A stretch of 47,643 nucleotides of DNA from the IMG/VR virus record IMGVR_UViG_3300042471_000279, positions 1 to 47,643 of that record; one strand, given 5' to 3'. The notes below the pieces were generated by a model. The model had not been told where the DNA came from. It did no database searches and saw only the letters and a list, made by a program, of their open reading frames with translations. The position numbers were made by a program, and so were the translations under genes. The DNA is from a virus. How positions within the stretch are numbered: position 1 is the first letter of the stretch; the number at the start of each line of letters is the position of its first letter. This document shows, piece after piece, positions 7,834-39,154 of the stretch.

Positions 7834-8658
7834 ATGCCATATCGTGTAGGTGCTAAGGGTTCATACGGTTGTTCTGGCTACCCTGCTTTAAAGGTGGGTA
7901 CCAATGAGGTAATGGGCTGTCATGATACTCGTACACAGGCAGCAGCACAGATCTACGCTATAAACCAATCTGAGGGCAATATAGGCAAAACTATGCACAC
8001 TCTTAAAGAGGGTGATTTTGTTATGGGTGCTACAACAGAAGGTCTTATTCATGGAATGATTGAACATATCATGACTGAAGGTGGAACTCTTGGAACTCCT
8101 GGATCTGAATATGCTCTTGTTTCTATGCCACCAGAAAATCCTGCTATGTCTGTAAGAATTTATGAAGAAGAAGATGGCGAATGGGAACCAACTGCATATA
8201 GTATTGGCATGATGTATGCAGATGCACAAAAAATAGATATTAAGGAGCACGAAATGGATGCAGAAGAAACAATGAAATCTAATATTGATAAAAAAACACT
8301 TGCAAATGCCCCATACCAAGATGCAAATTCTGAAAGAGAAATGGAAGACGAAGATGATGAGATTGAAGAGGCAAGACGCAGAATGATTAATGAGGAACTT
8401 GATAAGGCTAAAAAGCCTAACTATGGAGAAATGATTCAGCCACGTAGAGGTGGAAGCACTCCCTCAAATCCAAGACTTTATGCACGAATTGTACAAGAAG
8501 CAAAAGATAAGTTTGACGTTTATCCTTCAGCAGTTGCTAATGGATGGGTAGTGCAAGAATATAAACGTCGTGGAGGAACATACAAGTCTCAAGAAGGTGA
8601 AACAACGAAAGGTCTTTGGAGCGGATCATTTTTAGATCCTAATCCATTTAAAAAATAA
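7834..8658 (+). CDS. Conserved phage protein with head-protease-associated motifs
   Basis: 274 residues. The N-terminus (CSGYPALKVGTNEVMGCHD, then TQAAAQIYAI) is a module often found in front of phage prohead-protease or capsid morphogenesis proteins. The middle is acidic (EMEDEDDEIEEARRR). The C-terminus FDVYPSAVANGWVVQEYKRRGG resembles the DUF5872 module that precedes DNA-binding or structural phage proteins. I see no protease catalytic residues, so an accessory virion or packaging role is only inferred. Confidence 0.65.
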   Translation: MPYRVGAKGSYGCSGYPALKVGTNEVMGCHDTRTQAAAQIYAINQSEGNIGKTMHTLKEGDFVMGATTEGLIHGMIEHIMTEGGTLGTPGSEYALVSMPPENPAMSVRIYEEEDGEWEPTAYSIGMMYADAQKIDIKEHEMDAEETMKSNIDKKTLANAPYQDANSEREMEDEDDEIEEARRRMINEELDKAKKPNYGEMIQPRRGGSTPSNPRLYARIVQEAKDKFDVYPSAVANGWVVQEYKRRGGTYKSQEGETTKGLWSGSFLDPNPFKK

Positions 8659-10981: not shown

Positions 10982-11679
10982 AAGCAAACAAAATTATTTT
11001 TGAAGCAAAAAATGATCATGTTTTTAATGTTAGAGAAAGGCCTATTCCTGCAGCAAAACTTGTTCCAGAGTGGTGGAAAAATATTTCAAAGTATATTGGA
11101 AACAAAGAACTTGTAATAAATCCAGCAGCAAATATAACGGTAAAACAATGCGCTCCAACCATTGACATGTTCACTTCTGGCTATATAATAACGCTATGCT
11201 CAGATATTTTAGTTAGACAAGTAAACTATCAACCCTTGATTAGCCATATAGAAATATCTGAGCCAATAATTGACGCATGGCCTAATGAGCAACTTTCTGG
11301 TTTCAGAATACCAGATGGATTTAGTACGCCAGCATTTAAGTATTTGCATGGATGGAACATAAAAACTCCACCAGGCTGGTCAACGATGTTTATTCATCCA
11401 CCAGCATATGAGAATCTACCAATAAGATCAATTGCTGGTATTGTTGATACAGATATTTTAACTACTCCGATAAACTGTCCATTTTTTATCAAAGATGGTT
11501 TTGAGGGAGTAATTGAAAAAGGCACACCTATGGTTCAACTTATACCATTTAAAAGAGAGTCTTGGGAGTCTGAATTTACAAATCCTGGAAAGGATAAAAC
11601 ATTATTTGAAATTGATAAGTTAAAAACAAAAATTTATGGATATTACTCATCAAAAAGAGCAAGAAAAATATTTAAGTAG
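10978..11679 (+). CDS. DUF6065-like protein, paralogue 3
   Basis: 233 residues. Closely parallels the gene at 5792: VPEWW (29-33), TVKQCAPTIDMFTSGYII, KTPPGWS (129-135), GIVDTD (154-159), KGTPMVQLIPFKRESWESEF. The conserved Trp, Pro and Asp positions suggest preserved structure rather than decay. Coupled to the previous gene by ATGA. Function unknown. Confidence 0.7.
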   Translation: MKANKIIFEAKNDHVFNVRERPIPAAKLVPEWWKNISKYIGNKELVINPAANITVKQCAPTIDMFTSGYIITLCSDILVRQVNYQPLISHIEISEPIIDAWPNEQLSGFRIPDGFSTPAFKYLHGWNIKTPPGWSTMFIHPPAYENLPIRSIAGIVDTDILTTPINCPFFIKDGFEGVIEKGTPMVQLIPFKRESWESEFTNPGKDKTLFEIDKLKTKIYGYYSSKRARKIFK

Positions 11680-15298: not shown

Positions 15299-16053
15299 TC
15301 TTTGTATCCCCAAACATCATCATCTGAAGTAAACTTTCTAGTTCCCTCTCTGCCGTCCAAGTGATAAGATCTTTTTATTTTATTTCCACCATCTGGATAA
15401 TATATCCAAAGTTTATGTCTACTCCAACCAGCATTTCCATATTTAGAATAATCATCTTGAACCACACCATGGAAGATGTCTTCAATAAAAAAGTTTTGTT
15501 TGGAAAATCTAAGCACACTTTCTTTATAGTAATTTACAAAAGAAAGGTGTGGTCGTTGACTCCACTGAATTGTTTTCATAAAATCATCTTCGTGACCTAG
15601 CATTAAATGATTATGCTCTACTGGAATAGTTTCTTCAAAATGAAATCTAATTGTGTATGCTCTATTGCTAGACAACATTGACAAACATTTGTCCCAATCT
15701 ATATGCCTATCAGGAACCAGCGGGGCATCTCCTTCAACATACAAAAGAATAGGTGTTGTTATTTCATTAATAGTTCTTGACATCATGGTTGTTTGATGAC
15801 AGTGTTCTTCAAATACAAATGGCAGAACGTTTTTCCATTGATGCATACATTTCCAAAGCACACGATTTTTCCATTCATCATACGCATCCTTGCGATGTTT
15901 TTGTTCATCCCTTAATCCATCAATCTGTAAAATAATTTCATTATCTGGAAAATGAGATCTAATACTACTAATAGTTTCATCAATAATATGTGTGTCTGGA
16001 TGACTTGGCAATACAGAAGTTACTAATACAACTGTTATATCATTTTTATTCAT
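15295..16053 (-). CDS. GT-A type glycosyltransferase
   Basis: 252 residues. ITVVLVTSVLPSHPDTHIID, then a strand EIILQIDG and the metal-site-like LLYVEGDAPLVPD. It resembles small GT2-like enzymes of actinobacterial phages. Overlaps neighbours by 4 and 8 bases, so it belongs to a translationally coupled chain. Confidence 0.75.
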   Translation of the reverse strand: MNKNDITVVLVTSVLPSHPDTHIIDETISSIRSHFPDNEIILQIDGLRDEQKHRKDAYDEWKNRVLWKCMHQWKNVLPFVFEEHCHQTTMMSRTINEITTPILLYVEGDAPLVPDRHIDWDKCLSMLSSNRAYTIRFHFEETIPVEHNHLMLGHEDDFMKTIQWSQRPHLSFVNYYKESVLRFSKQNFFIEDIFHGVVQDDYSKYGNAGWSRHKLWIYYPDGGNKIKRSYHLDGREGTRKFTSDDDVWGYKE

Positions 16054-25278: not shown

Positions 25279-25392
25279 TCAATTATCCCATGTAGGGGGC
25301 GGTATGTCAACTACTTTTTCCCATCCACATCTTTGGCAATAATATATGATCTTATTACCTAGTTCTTTTGTTAAATATCTATGTAAATGCAT
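25279..25392 (-). CDS. Small CxxC protein, leaderless
   Basis: 37 residues from ATG 25392: a helix, then YYCQRCGWEKVVDIPPP. The TATAAT at 25399-25404 (minus) is six bases upstream, which fixes the start; a longer frame would run through the small RNA and its repeats. Confidence 0.55.
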   Translation of the reverse strand: MHLHRYLTKELGNKIIYYCQRCGWEKVVDIPPPTWDN

Positions 25393-25416
25393 TAAGGCAT
25401 TATACAATAAAAAGAT

Positions 25417-25446
25417 GAGCAGTTTATCGCTCATGCTCAGGAGCGC
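25417..25446 (-). ncRNA. CUGAGYA pseudoknot, copy 1
   Basis: Minus strand: stem CGCTC/GAGCG, loop CTGAGCAT, linker ATAAAC, then TGCTC, which pairs with GAGCA of the loop. Followed by ATCTTTTTATT. Forms the 3' end of the small RNA. Confidence 0.6.
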
Positions 25447-25448
25447 AT

Positions 25449-25491
25449 CCCCAGAAAGGGAGGGACGACTTGCTCCCCCAGAAAGGGAGGG
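25449..25491 (-). repeat. 16-bp direct repeat forming the two RNA loops
   Basis: Plus-strand CCCCAGAAAGGGAGGG occurs at 25449-25464 and 25476-25491, 27 bases apart. In the minus-strand RNA each copy is one hairpin arm, loop and start of the other arm. Confidence 0.85.
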
Positions 25492-25610
25492 GAGAGAAGG
25501 GTTTCTAGGCCCTTCTATATCCAATTATACACAACTATGGGCAAGTATGCAAATCAAGGGGTATATCAAAAAATACCACGGTATACCAAGAACTGCTATA
25601 CTAACCCTAT

Positions 25611-26743: not shown

Positions 26744-27028
26744 CTATTTCTTCTTTTTCTTTTCTACATAGTCTAATAAGTCTGCTAAATTCATTTCTTC
26801 ATCTACTTCATTTTCATTTATTTCTAAACCAGCAATAAACAAAGTAAAGGTTTCATCTATGTATTGTTCTCCTAGAGGAGTTATTTCTTTTATTAGACCC
26901 TCGGCTATCATGTATGCCAGGGGCAGTCCTAAATCATTGTATTCTATAAAGTCTCCGAATTGCTTATCATCCTTATAATTAATCCAGACTTCTCCTAGGA
27001 TACCGCATTTGTTCGCAAACTCTATCAT
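26744..27028 (-). CDS. Acidic small protein
   Basis: 94 residues, strongly acidic with a lysine tail (EKKKKK). Overlaps the upstream gene by ATGA. Regular helix/strand pattern, no motif recognised. The last gene of a unit that runs towards the noncoding region. Confidence 0.65.
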   Translation of the reverse strand: MIEFANKCGILGEVWINYKDDKQFGDFIEYNDLGLPLAYMIAEGLIKEITPLGEQYIDETFTLFIAGLEINENEVDEEMNLADLLDYVEKKKKK

Positions 27029-27261
27029 CTGCCAAAACCTTCCGTTTCTACTTCTCTACCCATAATTCTATCATGTTCATCTTTAGAAGCCAAATACATT
27101 GTTTCTAGTCTGTGAAAAATAATAGGCGCATGGTCAGCACTAATAGAGTAGCCAACTCCTTCTAAGTCGCTATTAAAATCTTCTGTTAATGCCCTTGCGA
27201 CTTTCTTGGCTACTTGTTGTTCTTTAGTTACCGCAGGCTTACGGATTGAGTATCTTGACAT
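27025..27261 (-). CDS. Small unknown protein
   Basis: 78 residues from ATG 27261 (MSRYSIRKPAV), which has GAGGAGG just upstream and a TGaTACAAT box before that. Unlike most neighbours it uses a full AGGAGG site. Alpha-helical, mixed charge; function unknown. Confidence 0.65.
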   Translation of the reverse strand: MSRYSIRKPAVTKEQQVAKKVARALTEDFNSDLEGVGYSISADHAPIIFHRLETMYLASKDEHDRIMGREVETEGFGR

Positions 27262-27746: not shown

Positions 27747-27838
27747 TAATCTTGAACCCTTTCTAGTTGTTCTCCACAGGCACACTCTGCTACGAGTGAC
27801 TTGTCTGACGGTGTATCCCAATAATGTTCGTGTTGCAT
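27746..27838 (-). CDS. Possible internal start of the YWDT-CACGE micro-protein
   Basis: In-frame ATG at 27838 within the preceding gene, with AGAAAGG-N7-ATG, the strongest type of site in this region. Product: 30 residues with CACGE, matching the free-standing gene 29228-29332. Confidence 0.5.
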   Translation of the reverse strand: MQHEHYWDTPSDKSLVAECACGEQLERVQD

Positions 27839-28042
27839 TTCACTACCTTTCTGTAGTTGGTTTGCTTTAATAGTATCAAATTCCTCTTCCTCTGTCAAAT
27901 CCTCTTTACTTAGAATAACTACAGATAGATCTGACAGAATCTCAGAACAGACAGCGTCATCGCTTTTTGCGTCTGATGTATATTCAAAATTCATGTACTC
28001 ACCTGTAGCCTCATGAATTAGTTCTATTTGATATAGTTTCAT
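27746..28042 (-). CDS. Protein with C-terminal YWDT-CACGE module
   Basis: 98 residues. The N-terminal 68 residues (MKLYQIELIHEATGEYMNFE start) are acidic and unknown. The last 30 residues, QHEHYWDTPSDKSLVAECAC plus GEQLE, are a near-copy of the separate small protein at 29228. An AGAAAGG site sits seven bases before the internal Met69, so the C-terminal module may also be made alone. Confidence 0.65.
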   Translation of the reverse strand: MKLYQIELIHEATGEYMNFEYTSDAKSDDAVCSEILSDLSVVILSKEDLTEEEEFDTIKANQLQKGSEMQHEHYWDTPSDKSLVAECACGEQLERVQD

Positions 28043-28512: not shown

Positions 28513-29235
28513 TCATACCTTTCTGTATTCAGGAACGTTGTCTAAGTATATCTTGTGGTCTTCACATTCCGCAACTTGGTCAAGGTCTGCTTCGCCCATA
28601 TAGTTACACTCTGAACAAATCTGACCACAATCATTGTCACAATATTCAAGGGTATCTAATGAATCACAATCCATACACTTAGTCTCATACTCTTCACTAT
28701 TAGTAATAAAACCATTTTTGAATTCTGTTTCTCCACCCCAACCAGTTTCTTCTTGATAGTATAGATTAAAATCTAAGTCAGGATACTGTTCAGATAGTTT
28801 GATAATAGCAGGCACTGGTGGAGACCAAGCGGTATTAAAACGGTATGAAAGAGAAGTCTCATCTTCTTCCATTAACTCAGTCTCAGGATACTCCTCACCA
28901 TGTCTAATTGCTACATCCCATTTGGTTCCCCAGTTTCTTACATTCCAGTCATACCAATGGTTGCCTTTGAACATAAGAGATTCTTCTAATGGTAGGCTAT
29001 GGTCAGGTTGCTTTAGATACTCCTCATCAGAGACACCGTCCTGAATATGATTATATATATTATGAAAAGCAAAAACAGGATTAGAGTATGCGGTTTCTGA
29101 TACTTCCATTTGTCCTGTAGCCATGTTCCATGAATCATGAGATTTCTTAAATGGTCTATTAAGCATACGCTTAACATCCGCAATGAGTTCAGGCTTACCT
29201 TCTATAGAAAGAGTGTTATAACACCAGTTAGGCAT
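28513..29235 (-). CDS. YubB/Api92-like ferredoxin-fold protein
   Basis: 240 residues. The N-terminus MPNWCYNTLSIEGKPELIAD, then HWYDWNVRNWGTKWDVAIR and FNTAWSPPVPAIIKLS, is the YubB/Api92 pattern common on phages and plasmids (ferredoxin-like fold, unknown role). An added Cys-rich C-terminus (CMDCDSLDTLEYCDNDCG, CSEC) should bind one or two zinc ions. Confidence 0.8.
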   Translation of the reverse strand: MPNWCYNTLSIEGKPELIADVKRMLNRPFKKSHDSWNMATGQMEVSETAYSNPVFAFHNIYNHIQDGVSDEEYLKQPDHSLPLEESLMFKGNHWYDWNVRNWGTKWDVAIRHGEEYPETELMEEDETSLSYRFNTAWSPPVPAIIKLSEQYPDLDFNLYYQEETGWGGETEFKNGFITNSEEYETKCMDCDSLDTLEYCDNDCGQICSECNYMGEADLDQVAECEDHKIYLDNVPEYRKV

Positions 29236-29332: not shown

Positions 29333-29354
29333 GATTTTTTCCTTTCTGTTCTTA

Positions 29355-29566: not shown

Positions 29567-29778
29567 TGGATCCTTTCTAGTTCTTTATAATAAACATTAA
29601 GTGAAGTTACTGATAAGTCAAGGGTATCAGAAGGGTGCATAATTAGCAAGTGGTCCAATGCATGTCCAGCAGTTTTAAAACCTGAATAGCATTTATTCCC
29701 AATAGTCATTTCCCAGCAGTCAACTCCACCAGGGGATACAGAATATTCCATTTCATATATTTCTACATTTAGGGTCAT
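29560..29778 (-). CDS. Small unknown protein
   Basis: 72 residues, MTLNVEIYEMEYSVSPGGVD start; alpha/beta. The promoter TTGATT-17-TAAAAT lies directly before it with almost no leader, so it is near-leaderless, unlike the following genes. Function unknown. Confidence 0.6.
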   Translation of the reverse strand: MTLNVEIYEMEYSVSPGGVDCWEMTIGNKCYSGFKTAGHALDHLLIMHPSDTLDLSVTSLNVYYKELERIQC

Positions 29779-29960: not shown

Positions 29961-29988
29961 GAGCAGTTTATACTCTTACTCAGGAGTT
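29961..29988 (-). ncRNA. CUGAGYA pseudoknot, copy 2 (3' end of DUF932 mRNA)
   Basis: Minus strand: ACTC/GAGT stem, loop CTGAGTAA, linker ATAAAC, TGCTC pairing with GAGTA (one U-G), then AATTTTTTTTT. Begins nine bases after the DUF932 stop; acts as terminator or 3' cap. Confidence 0.6.
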
Positions 29989-31143: not shown

Positions 31144-31194
31144 TTTGCGAGGGGCAGTTTTAAATCATGCCCAGGATCTTGGATAGCCCCACTA

Positions 31195-31921: not shown

Positions 31922-31939
31922 GGGGCGTTCCTTTCTGTT

Positions 31940-32064: not shown

Positions 32065-32093
32065 GAGCAGTTTATTGTCATACTCAGGACAAT
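32065..32093 (-). ncRNA. CUGAGYA pseudoknot, copy 3
   Basis: Minus strand: ATTGTC/GACAAT stem, loop CTGAGTAT, linker AAAC, TGCTC pairing with GAGTA. Followed by TTTAAAAAT. Confidence 0.6.
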
Positions 32094-32363: not shown

Positions 32364-32375
32364 TTGTTTATCCTT

Positions 32376-32415
32376 TCTGTGATAATCAAGTTTAACATTT
32401 TTTAGGGGGGAAGTC
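32376..32415 (-). promoter_or_regulatory. Minus promoter TTGACT-17-TGtTAAACT
   Basis: Clear -35 and extended -10 with a 17-base spacer, upstream of the gene at 32363. Confidence 0.65.
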
Positions 32416-32859: not shown

Positions 32860-32917
32860 TTGTTTTCCTTTCTGTATGGGGTTCTATCTTAGCATTTCTA
32901 TGATAGAAAATCAAGTT

Positions 32918-34038: not shown

Positions 34039-34070
34039 GGGGTTTCCTTTCTAATATCATAATAACATTT

Positions 34071-36176: not shown

Positions 36177-36364
36177 ACAGGAATCAACCCCAATTCGTCA
36201 ATTCCGCAAGCCTTTTCAAATCTTGCGAAATCAAATCTATCATTATCAGATTTAAAGTATTGAGAAAACTCCTCTACCAAATCCTCAAAAACTTGTGGGT
36301 GAATTTCCTCGCTGAAACCTTTTAGAATTTCAGCGGTCTTGACATAGTCTTTGCGTGTCATCAT
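36173..36364 (-). CDS. Small acidic protein
   Basis: 63 residues, helical, MTRKDYVKTAEILKGFSEEI; overlaps neighbours. This composition is typical of a small conserved phage protein of unknown role. Confidence 0.65.
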   Translation of the reverse strand: MMTRKDYVKTAEILKGFSEEIHPQVFEDLVEEFSQYFKSDNDRFDFARFEKACGIDELGLIPV

Positions 36365-36618
36365 TAGTTAGACCCCTCATCTAGTAGAATAAACGCATGA
36401 GTTCCACCATCATTTATTTTAGTTAGTGCTATTAGTAATTCATCATGAGTTAGAAGTGAAGCGTCACCCACTAATTCTGTTAGTGCTTGAATATTTAGTG
36501 AGGCAAATGCACCTTCAGGCAGGCGCTCAATAGTGGATAGAAATGGAGAGTCAGAATAAACTCTTGAAATAAAATTCACGCCGTTAGTTGTGAATGGAAA
36601 GTCTTTATAGTTAGTCAT
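36364..36618 (-). CDS. Small unknown protein
   Basis: 84 residues; AAGAAAGG before the ATG. FISRVYSDSPFLSTIERLPE pattern; alpha/beta. Function unknown. Confidence 0.65.
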   Translation of the reverse strand: MTNYKDFPFTTNGVNFISRVYSDSPFLSTIERLPEGAFASLNIQALTELVGDASLLTHDELLIALTKINDGGTHAFILLDEGSN

Positions 36619-36620
36619 TT

Positions 36621-36740
36621 TTAGTTTTTACCTTTCTTGGTATTTGTTGTTGATACTATTTTAGCGATTTTCTCTAAGTTTGTCAATTGTTGCGCTTTAC
36701 GCTGGCTCTCAATAAGAGCCTTGAATTCATCTAATTTCAT
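36621..36740 (-). CDS. Short helical protein
   Basis: 39 residues, MKLDEFKALIESQRKAQQLT and a Lys-rich end; the AAGAAAGG of the next gene is inside its last codons. TAATG overlap at the start. Confidence 0.55.
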   Translation of the reverse strand: MKLDEFKALIESQRKAQQLTNLEKIAKIVSTTNTKKGKN

Positions 36741-36937: not shown

Positions 36938-37024
36938 TTAAGTTATCCTTTCTAAGATACTTTCTAATAATTCTATTATTTCATTTTTTAGCGTTAAAGT
37001 CAAATTAGACCCACGCTTGGGGAG

Positions 37025-37230: not shown

Positions 37231-37261
37231 TTTCTGACCTACCTTTCTATTTAGTGTGCTA

Positions 37262-37553: not shown

Positions 37554-37578
37554 AAGAAATGAACAGAAAGGTTCTAAA

Positions 37579-37761: not shown

Positions 37762-37787
37762 AGAAACTAAAGAAAGGAACAGATAAA

Positions 37788-37966: not shown

Positions 37967-37994
37967 AACAAAAAGAAAGGTTAGGTAGCAAAAA

Positions 37995-38153: not shown

Positions 38154-38173
38154 GAAAGAAAGGATAACTAAAA

Positions 38174-38284: not shown

Positions 38285-38427
38285 TGAATAGCGTTATTTA
38301 TTACTATTATTCGCAAGAACAAAAACTCCGCAAGGCTTGGATTATTAAACACGGAAGTGTTGCGGGGTATGATAAAGCAACCGATACAGAAAAAAGAAAG
38401 GTATTAAATGAAAATAACAATAACTAG
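38284..38427 (+). CDS. Small unknown protein
   Basis: 47 residues, TAATG start; YYYYSQEQKLRKAWIIKHGS, ending in a run of Asn. It overlaps the next gene by 20 bases and carries that gene's AGAAAGG site. Tentative. Confidence 0.5.
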   Translation: MNSVIYYYYSQEQKLRKAWIIKHGSVAGYDKATDTEKRKVLNENNNN

Positions 38428-39100: not shown

Positions 39101-39154
39101 TAGGCTTTAATTCTCTCAATGGCAAACCGCCAGACCGACAGAAAGGCAAAAACA

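Follow-up and report, generated by a model that had tools for sequence, protein, structure and literature searches.

The small RNA locus and its relatives

The window is a 47,643-nt stretch of viral DNA. A hexamer scan finds a promoter-like element, TTTGCA-N18-TATAAT, on the minus strand at 25524–25553. Its −10-like TATAAT (25529–25524), already pointed out by the first-pass annotation, has TTTGCA 18 nt upstream, and a simple promoter scan gives the pair 10 of 12 consensus matches. The RNA predicted from this promoter occupies 25405–25516 on the minus strand and folds into three hairpins and a 3′ stem, with a minimum free energy of −41.3 kcal/mol (z = −2.28 versus shuffles). The 5′ hairpin (25495–25516) starts at the predicted first base, 25516, and differs in length and sequence between relatives. 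It is followed by two central hairpins, hairpin A (25473–25494) and hairpin B (25446–25467), each composed of a 6-bp stem and the loop UCCCUUUCUG, which lies at 25488–25479 and 25461–25452, respectively. Both derive from the 16-bp direct repeat CCCTCCCTTTCTGGGG, and both window loops are UCCCUUUCU, in agreement with the original description of two hairpins with the same loop; the comparison set gives a 10-nt conserved loop, NNCCUUUCUG. The third element (25417–25445) had been described as one more hairpin, and this part of the description did not hold. It covaries as two interleaved helices, i.e. an H-type pseudoknot, in which S1 pairs CGCUC (25445–25441) with GAGCG (25432–25428) and S2 pairs GAGC (25438–25435) with GCUC (25420–25417). 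The 3′ tail AUCUUUUUAUUG (25405–25416) is U-rich in the window, where a G+C-rich hairpin precedes a T run as in an intrinsic terminator. In most relatives, the T run is replaced by [C/A]CUUUCU(G) directly after the pseudoknot, which brings the pairing word to three copies. Immediately downstream of the small RNA lies a small zinc-finger-like ORF (MHLHRYLTKELGNKIIYYCQRCGW...; 25279–25392, minus strand), which has a TATAAT 6 nt before its ATG and is kept in several relatives; judged from this arrangement, it is probably a leaderless gene.

We scanned IMG/VR with the pattern CTCCCTTTCTGGGG and two further patterns, which returned many contigs of the same layout, and built a covariance model from 21 two-hairpin sequences. 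The model matches 30 related contigs at E < 2e-8, plus the divergent contig G053 at 1.8e-17. The small RNA is thus present in 31 other IMG/VR contigs, with 26 distinct sequences when the window and G053 are counted in, and four sequences have one central hairpin rather than two. A TTGACA/TATAAT-like hexamer pair with 9–12 of 12 matches is found, at much the same position, in 23 of the 24 distinct regions scored, the 24th (G018) belonging to a contig that starts too near to score; in the relatives, the hexamers lie 29–104 nt upstream of the last loop. As the scores come from a best-of search, a single one weighs less than their recurrence. The stems of hairpin A include CTCCCC/GGGGAG, CTACCC/GGGTAG, CATCGC/GCGATG, CGCCCC/GGGGCG, ATCCGC/GCGGAT, and CTGCCT/GGGCAG, those of hairpin B vary similarly, and every cell of both stems (100%) holds a standard pair. 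The pseudoknot varies likewise in S1 (CGCTC/GAGCG, CGTC/GACG, CCTC/GAGG, TTC/GAA, and ACTC/GAGT) and in S2 (GAGC/GCTC and GGGC/GCCC). Further S2 variants of the pseudoknot are AGAC/GTCT, GGAT/ATCC, and AAGC/GCTT. Both-sided changes occur in 11 of 20 pairs of the whole structure, whose covariation score is 0.401; shuffles reach 0.136 ± 0.015 and slid controls no more than 0.097.

The loops behave differently from the stems around them, as CCUUUCUG is invariant in both loops of all 21 two-hairpin members. Because the first two loop bases vary, the conserved unit is this 8-mer, the complement of CAGAAAGG. The first-pass annotation had made its reading depend on loops kept in related phages and on repeats free of any conserved protein, and had proposed a covariance model from relatives. 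The loops are kept, the 21 sequences behind the model, which matches 31 contigs, have compensated stems and constant loops, and the loop spacing of 26 or 27 nt leaves no reading frame across the repeats. At the gathering score, Rfam 15 yields no family for the small RNA or its pseudoknot, tRNAs alone reaching that score, and blastn finds no similar RNA in annotated phages. A genome-contig scan gave 29 further matches, which look like chance occurrences in unrelated sequence; none has promoter, hairpin, and pseudoknot together. Comparison among relatives leaves very little room for doubt about the RNA family and its structure.

The pseudoknot module

Three further copies of the pseudoknot stand alone in the window, all on the minus strand. 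One is located at 29961–29988, 13 nt past the stop of the DUF932 gene; the others are at 31152–31179, with AGAUC/GAUUU as S1, and at 32065–32092, with UUGUC/GACAA. The core TCCTGRGYATGA..TAAACTGCYC, with S1 left largely free, occurs in at least 120 viral contigs. Among the matches listed, S1 has at least three pairs in 128 of 129 copies examined and at least four in 113 of 129. Sixty equal-length stand-alone copies give a covariation score of 0.284, compared with 0.073 after shuffling and at most 0.064 after sliding, and the whole signal comes from S1. Again among the matches listed, 80 of 125 copies lie within 60 nt after a stop codon, most often at 9–25 nt. Downstream there is usually another gene with its ribosome-binding site, a promoter, or a tRNA gene, and the stand-alone copies are often without a T run.

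A role in readthrough or frameshifting was set aside, since the distance to the stop codon varies and the small RNA has no ORF. We infer that the pseudoknot is a 3′-end module, acting as a terminator or an exonuclease block. The stand-alone form has no match in Rfam and, as far as tested, appears to be an undescribed element. It would be the second new RNA element found here, present in more than 100 viral contigs and probably serving as a 3′-end or stability module. Other structures neighbor it in some contigs. The conserved hairpin GTCGGGGGAGACAGCGAC, a further RNA element that recurs and has variable flanks, is found just upstream of the pseudoknot in L259, L276, L294, L295, L305, L337, and G041 (15621–15731), and longer structured 3′-UTR segments (e.g. 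CTGATAAGCCCCGCTAAAAAATGAAGTGGCGAAAGTCCTTGCGGG) place a closing stem right before it in G004 (8343–8437, minus strand), G047 (42809, plus strand), and G026 (11179–11298, minus strand).

The AGAAAGG gene block

AGAAAGG precedes a start codon 18 times in the window, between 27.76 and 39.15 kb, which bears out the earlier figure of at least 18 genes at 27.3–39.2 kb. The stricter pattern AGAAAGG-N4-12-ATG occurs 16 times at about 27.3–39.2 kb and nowhere else in the window, the two extra sites having a GTG start or a longer spacing; dinucleotide shuffles, a background count that had been suggested at the outset, average 1.16 and never exceed 4. On the minus strand, candidate target sites of the stricter pattern are at 27758–27764 (before an ATG), 27846–27852, 28518–28524, 29572–29578, 31930–31936, 32372–32378, 32867–32873, 34046–34052 (a gene of the gene product 88 family), 36631–36637, 36947–36953, and 37242–37248, and one more is found before a GTG (29341–29347). 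On the plus strand, they are at 37565–37571, 37771–37777, 38157–38163, 38395–38401, and 39140–39146, with an additional site at 37974–37980 whose spacing is 14. Other registers are scarce before ATG inside the block (AAAGGAG 0, AAGGAGG 1, and AGGAG 2), whereas AGGAG occurs 19 times outside it. The description of the outside genes as leaderless or GGAG-type is only broadly true, and many of them have no clear site.

Predicted duplexes between loop and site range from −9.2 to −12.2 kcal/mol, and the values for the 16S 3′ tail at these sites are comparable. Directly before AGAAAGG, A (47%) is commoner than C (38%, with 12–32% at neighboring positions), so that this base does not decide between pairing with the small RNA and pairing with 16S rRNA, and bases beyond the 7-mer offer no discrimination.

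The block is also seen in relatives. In the long contigs G001, G016, G028, G009, G013, and G003, AGAAAGG is restricted to a single block next to the small RNA; in G016 (107.7 kb), for example, all 15 sites fall at 44–54 kb and the small RNA at 57.4 kb. The RNA lies 1–3 kb beyond the homologue of gene 26744–27028, usually before SSB. Eighteen orthologous groups were chosen from the AGAAAGG genes of ten RNA-bearing contigs. As this gene choice favors RNA-bearing phages by construction, the fair figure is that of the RNA-bearing contigs not used for choosing. They have exact AGAAAGG at 20 of 29 orthologous starts, versus 15 of 111 in RNA-free relatives, these counts being phylogenetically clustered and uncorrected for relatedness, with some RNA-free contigs incomplete and possibly ending before the RNA. 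In the DUF932 protein tree, the RNA-bearing label needs four changes, only one of which is forced by well-supported branches. The same genes in RNA-free relatives have drifted to AGAAAAGG, CGAAAGG, AGUAAAGG, AGAAACGG, AGTAAAGG, or AAAGAGG, sites that are still ribosome-binding-like but are not one word. This loss of AGAAAGG, like the pseudoknot and the third CUUUCU in the tail of most relatives, was absent from the first-pass annotation.

Among the RNA-free relatives, G037, G039, and G041 have the neighboring gene with long flanks and still lack the small RNA. In G045, G047, and G052, which have many AGAAAGG sites, the canonical small RNA was not seen in the records searched. A directed search found 3′-UTR hairpins exposing CCUUUCU beside a pseudoknot in G045 and G047, which fits the anti-Shine-Dalgarno idea. 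Such CCUUUCU-loop hairpins lie at 36347–36424 in G045, 31668 in G046, and 43689 in G047, all on the plus strand, and the pseudoknot follows in G045 and G047; all three phages have AGAAAGG sites, and the canonical small RNA was not seen in the record searched for any of them. An RNA with matching changed loops was sought in the relatives whose sites have drifted, and none was found. Two candidates from this search were rejected: G037 (8351–8478, minus strand) does have a promoter and a pseudoknot, yet the only CCUUUCU it contains is predicted to be partly paired, and G050 (27166–27244, minus strand) has no loop that matches. These two promoter-plus-pseudoknot RNAs, located near the small RNA position, are possibly diverged small RNAs with other targets.

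By portal and DUF932 protein, the nearest isolates are Streptomyces phages, one of which, Annadreamy, is placed in Stanwilliamsviridae. The host is thus probably an actinobacterium. The DUF932 gene is one of the first in the Riptide record, and on this synteny, rather than on expression, we call the AGAAAGG block early-type. Two stretches of related Streptomyces phages have neither the small RNA, nor the pseudoknot, nor AGAAAGG usage. In G003, G007, G013, G019, and others, the interval from the pseudoknot to the next AGAAAGG gene contains CRP/GlxR-like palindromes (TGTGA-N6-TCACA), and their occurrence there suggests that promoters of the block are under a host regulator.

Proposed mechanism and known systems

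Comparison among relatives demonstrates an RNA family with a defined structure and invariant loops, and a confined motif that co-occurs with it. The RNA probably acts in trans, by antisense pairing that occludes the Shine-Dalgarno sites of the early-type gene block; we infer its transcription, its pairing, and the repression that would follow. Specifically, a phage small RNA of about 110 nt would be transcribed from 25516 towards 25405, and its two loops, plus the 3′ tail in most relatives, would expose CCUUUCU(G). This word would pair with AGAAAGG, the Shine-Dalgarno word of one contiguous phage gene block (27.3–39.2 kb), and loop pairing would block 30S binding and shut off the block as a class. 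The pseudoknot would be a shared 3′-end module that forms or protects the 3′ end of the RNA. Every site coincides with the ribosome-binding site, which makes occlusion the most straightforward consequence; the same holds for B11 (PMC10470900) and IsrR (PMC9410917). The proposal in the first-pass annotation that the RNA may compete with 16S rRNA restates the same mechanism, as loops mimicking the 16S 3′ end would compete for the mRNA site.

AGAAAGG is also a normal partner of the 16S rRNA 3′ end, whose terminal bases are CCUUUCU, so the match between loop and site could reflect a shared fit to the ribosome. From this identity, and from the CUUUCU at the end of most members, one could argue that the RNA is a mimic or decoy of 16S rRNA that binds a recognizer of its 3′ end, such as a ribosomal protein, an initiation factor, or an RNase like the MazF that cuts the anti-Shine-Dalgarno sequence, and that the AGAAAGG genes are ordinary. 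A MazF toxin removing this sequence is reported from M. tuberculosis (PMC12274833). The decoy reading is nevertheless unlikely: conservation in the loops is limited to CCUUUCUG and does not extend to the 16S core CCUCC, and neither the confinement of the sites to a block near the RNA nor their drift in RNA-free relatives is explained by it. Nor are the same two observations, block confinement and co-loss in relatives, predicted by a model in which the RNA is aimed mainly at host mRNAs bearing AGAAAGG-type sites and its match to the phage block comes from shared ribosome fit. An actinobacterial 16S end would favor such sites and the host is probably an actinobacterium; a host-directed shut-off still seems improbable to us.

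Pairing alone leaves the direction of the effect unfixed. The identical pairing evidence would serve an RNA that stabilizes or delivers AGAAAGG leaders, or one that early mRNAs titrate and thereby free another target. We give this a small probability, between those of the decoy and of the host-directed shut-off, because every target is a ribosome-binding site, mostly 4–12 nt before the start, which predicts occlusion, and because C-rich-loop RNAs of the same design repress (PMC10470900, PMC9410917). Least credible, and very improbable, is a non-regulatory role in which the repeated hairpins only end transcription or mark its boundary between two groups of genes; the 3′ end in the window does have terminator-like features, but a dedicated promoter and an invariant 8-mer in two loops on covarying stems would be superfluous. 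Antisense occlusion remains our preferred reading. It can be widened into a proposition that we consider evenly balanced, namely that AGAAAGG is a private Shine-Dalgarno address label on the early block, that one RNA carrying two or three copies of the complement switches the block off as an RNA counterpart of T4 RegA/RegB, and that this RNA ends in an undescribed pseudoknot used widely at phage 3′ ends. Phage gene timing is mostly a matter of promoters and proteins. If the proposal is true, control of a whole temporal class by one small RNA, through a ribosome-binding word that the genes of the class share, would add a new layout to phage timing.

The RNA has an invariant unpaired word complementary to the ribosome-binding sites of several mRNAs, which is a feature of C-rich-loop anti-Shine-Dalgarno small RNAs. 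It appears to be a variant on this known design, with a pseudoknot undescribed as far as tested, and would resemble 6C or IsrR in its working while belonging to neither. 6C/B11 of actinobacteria (Rfam RF01066) shares with the phage RNA a pair of C-rich-loop hairpins and, after them, a 3′ structure, and in M. abscessus either C-rich loop of B11 is enough by itself to repress a target whose 5′ UTR has a G tract (PMC10470900). The phage RNA differs in its loops (NNCCUUUCUG), which have no runs of six C and only CCUUUCUG invariant, in being phage-borne, in having the pseudoknot in place of a plain terminator at its 3′ end, and in its dedicated class of AGAAAGG genes; the RF01066 covariance model has no match in the window at the gathering score and none at the locus up to E 10. 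In IsrR of Staphylococcus, C-rich stretches remain single-stranded at several places, including two hairpin loops; they pair with the Shine-Dalgarno regions of target mRNAs and lower translation (PMC9410917). C-rich hairpin loops facing Shine-Dalgarno regions are common to IsrR, related small RNAs with C-rich regions, and the phage RNA, whose pairing is predicted, whereas IsrR is chromosomal and iron-regulated and has unrelated sequence and 3′ structure.

In the literature searched, with partial coverage, we found no class-wide phage RNA of this design. Among the closest parallels within phages are T4 RegA, which blocks about 30 mRNAs, and RegB, which cuts the GGAG sites of early genes (PMC3014915). 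T4 in this way lowers the output of its early genes class-wide, via their translation initiation regions, which is also what we propose for the phage RNA; RegA and RegB are proteins, whereas the agent suggested here is an RNA that recognizes AGAAAGG. A phage RNA aimed at a ribosome-binding site is known from P1/P7, where the c4 antisense RNA pairs around the ribosome-binding site of ant and blocks translation, probably via its loops (PMC12197685). The c4 RNA targets the ant mRNA, whereas here the target word recurs at 16 or more sites of a single genome, and the two structures are unrelated (no Rfam match).
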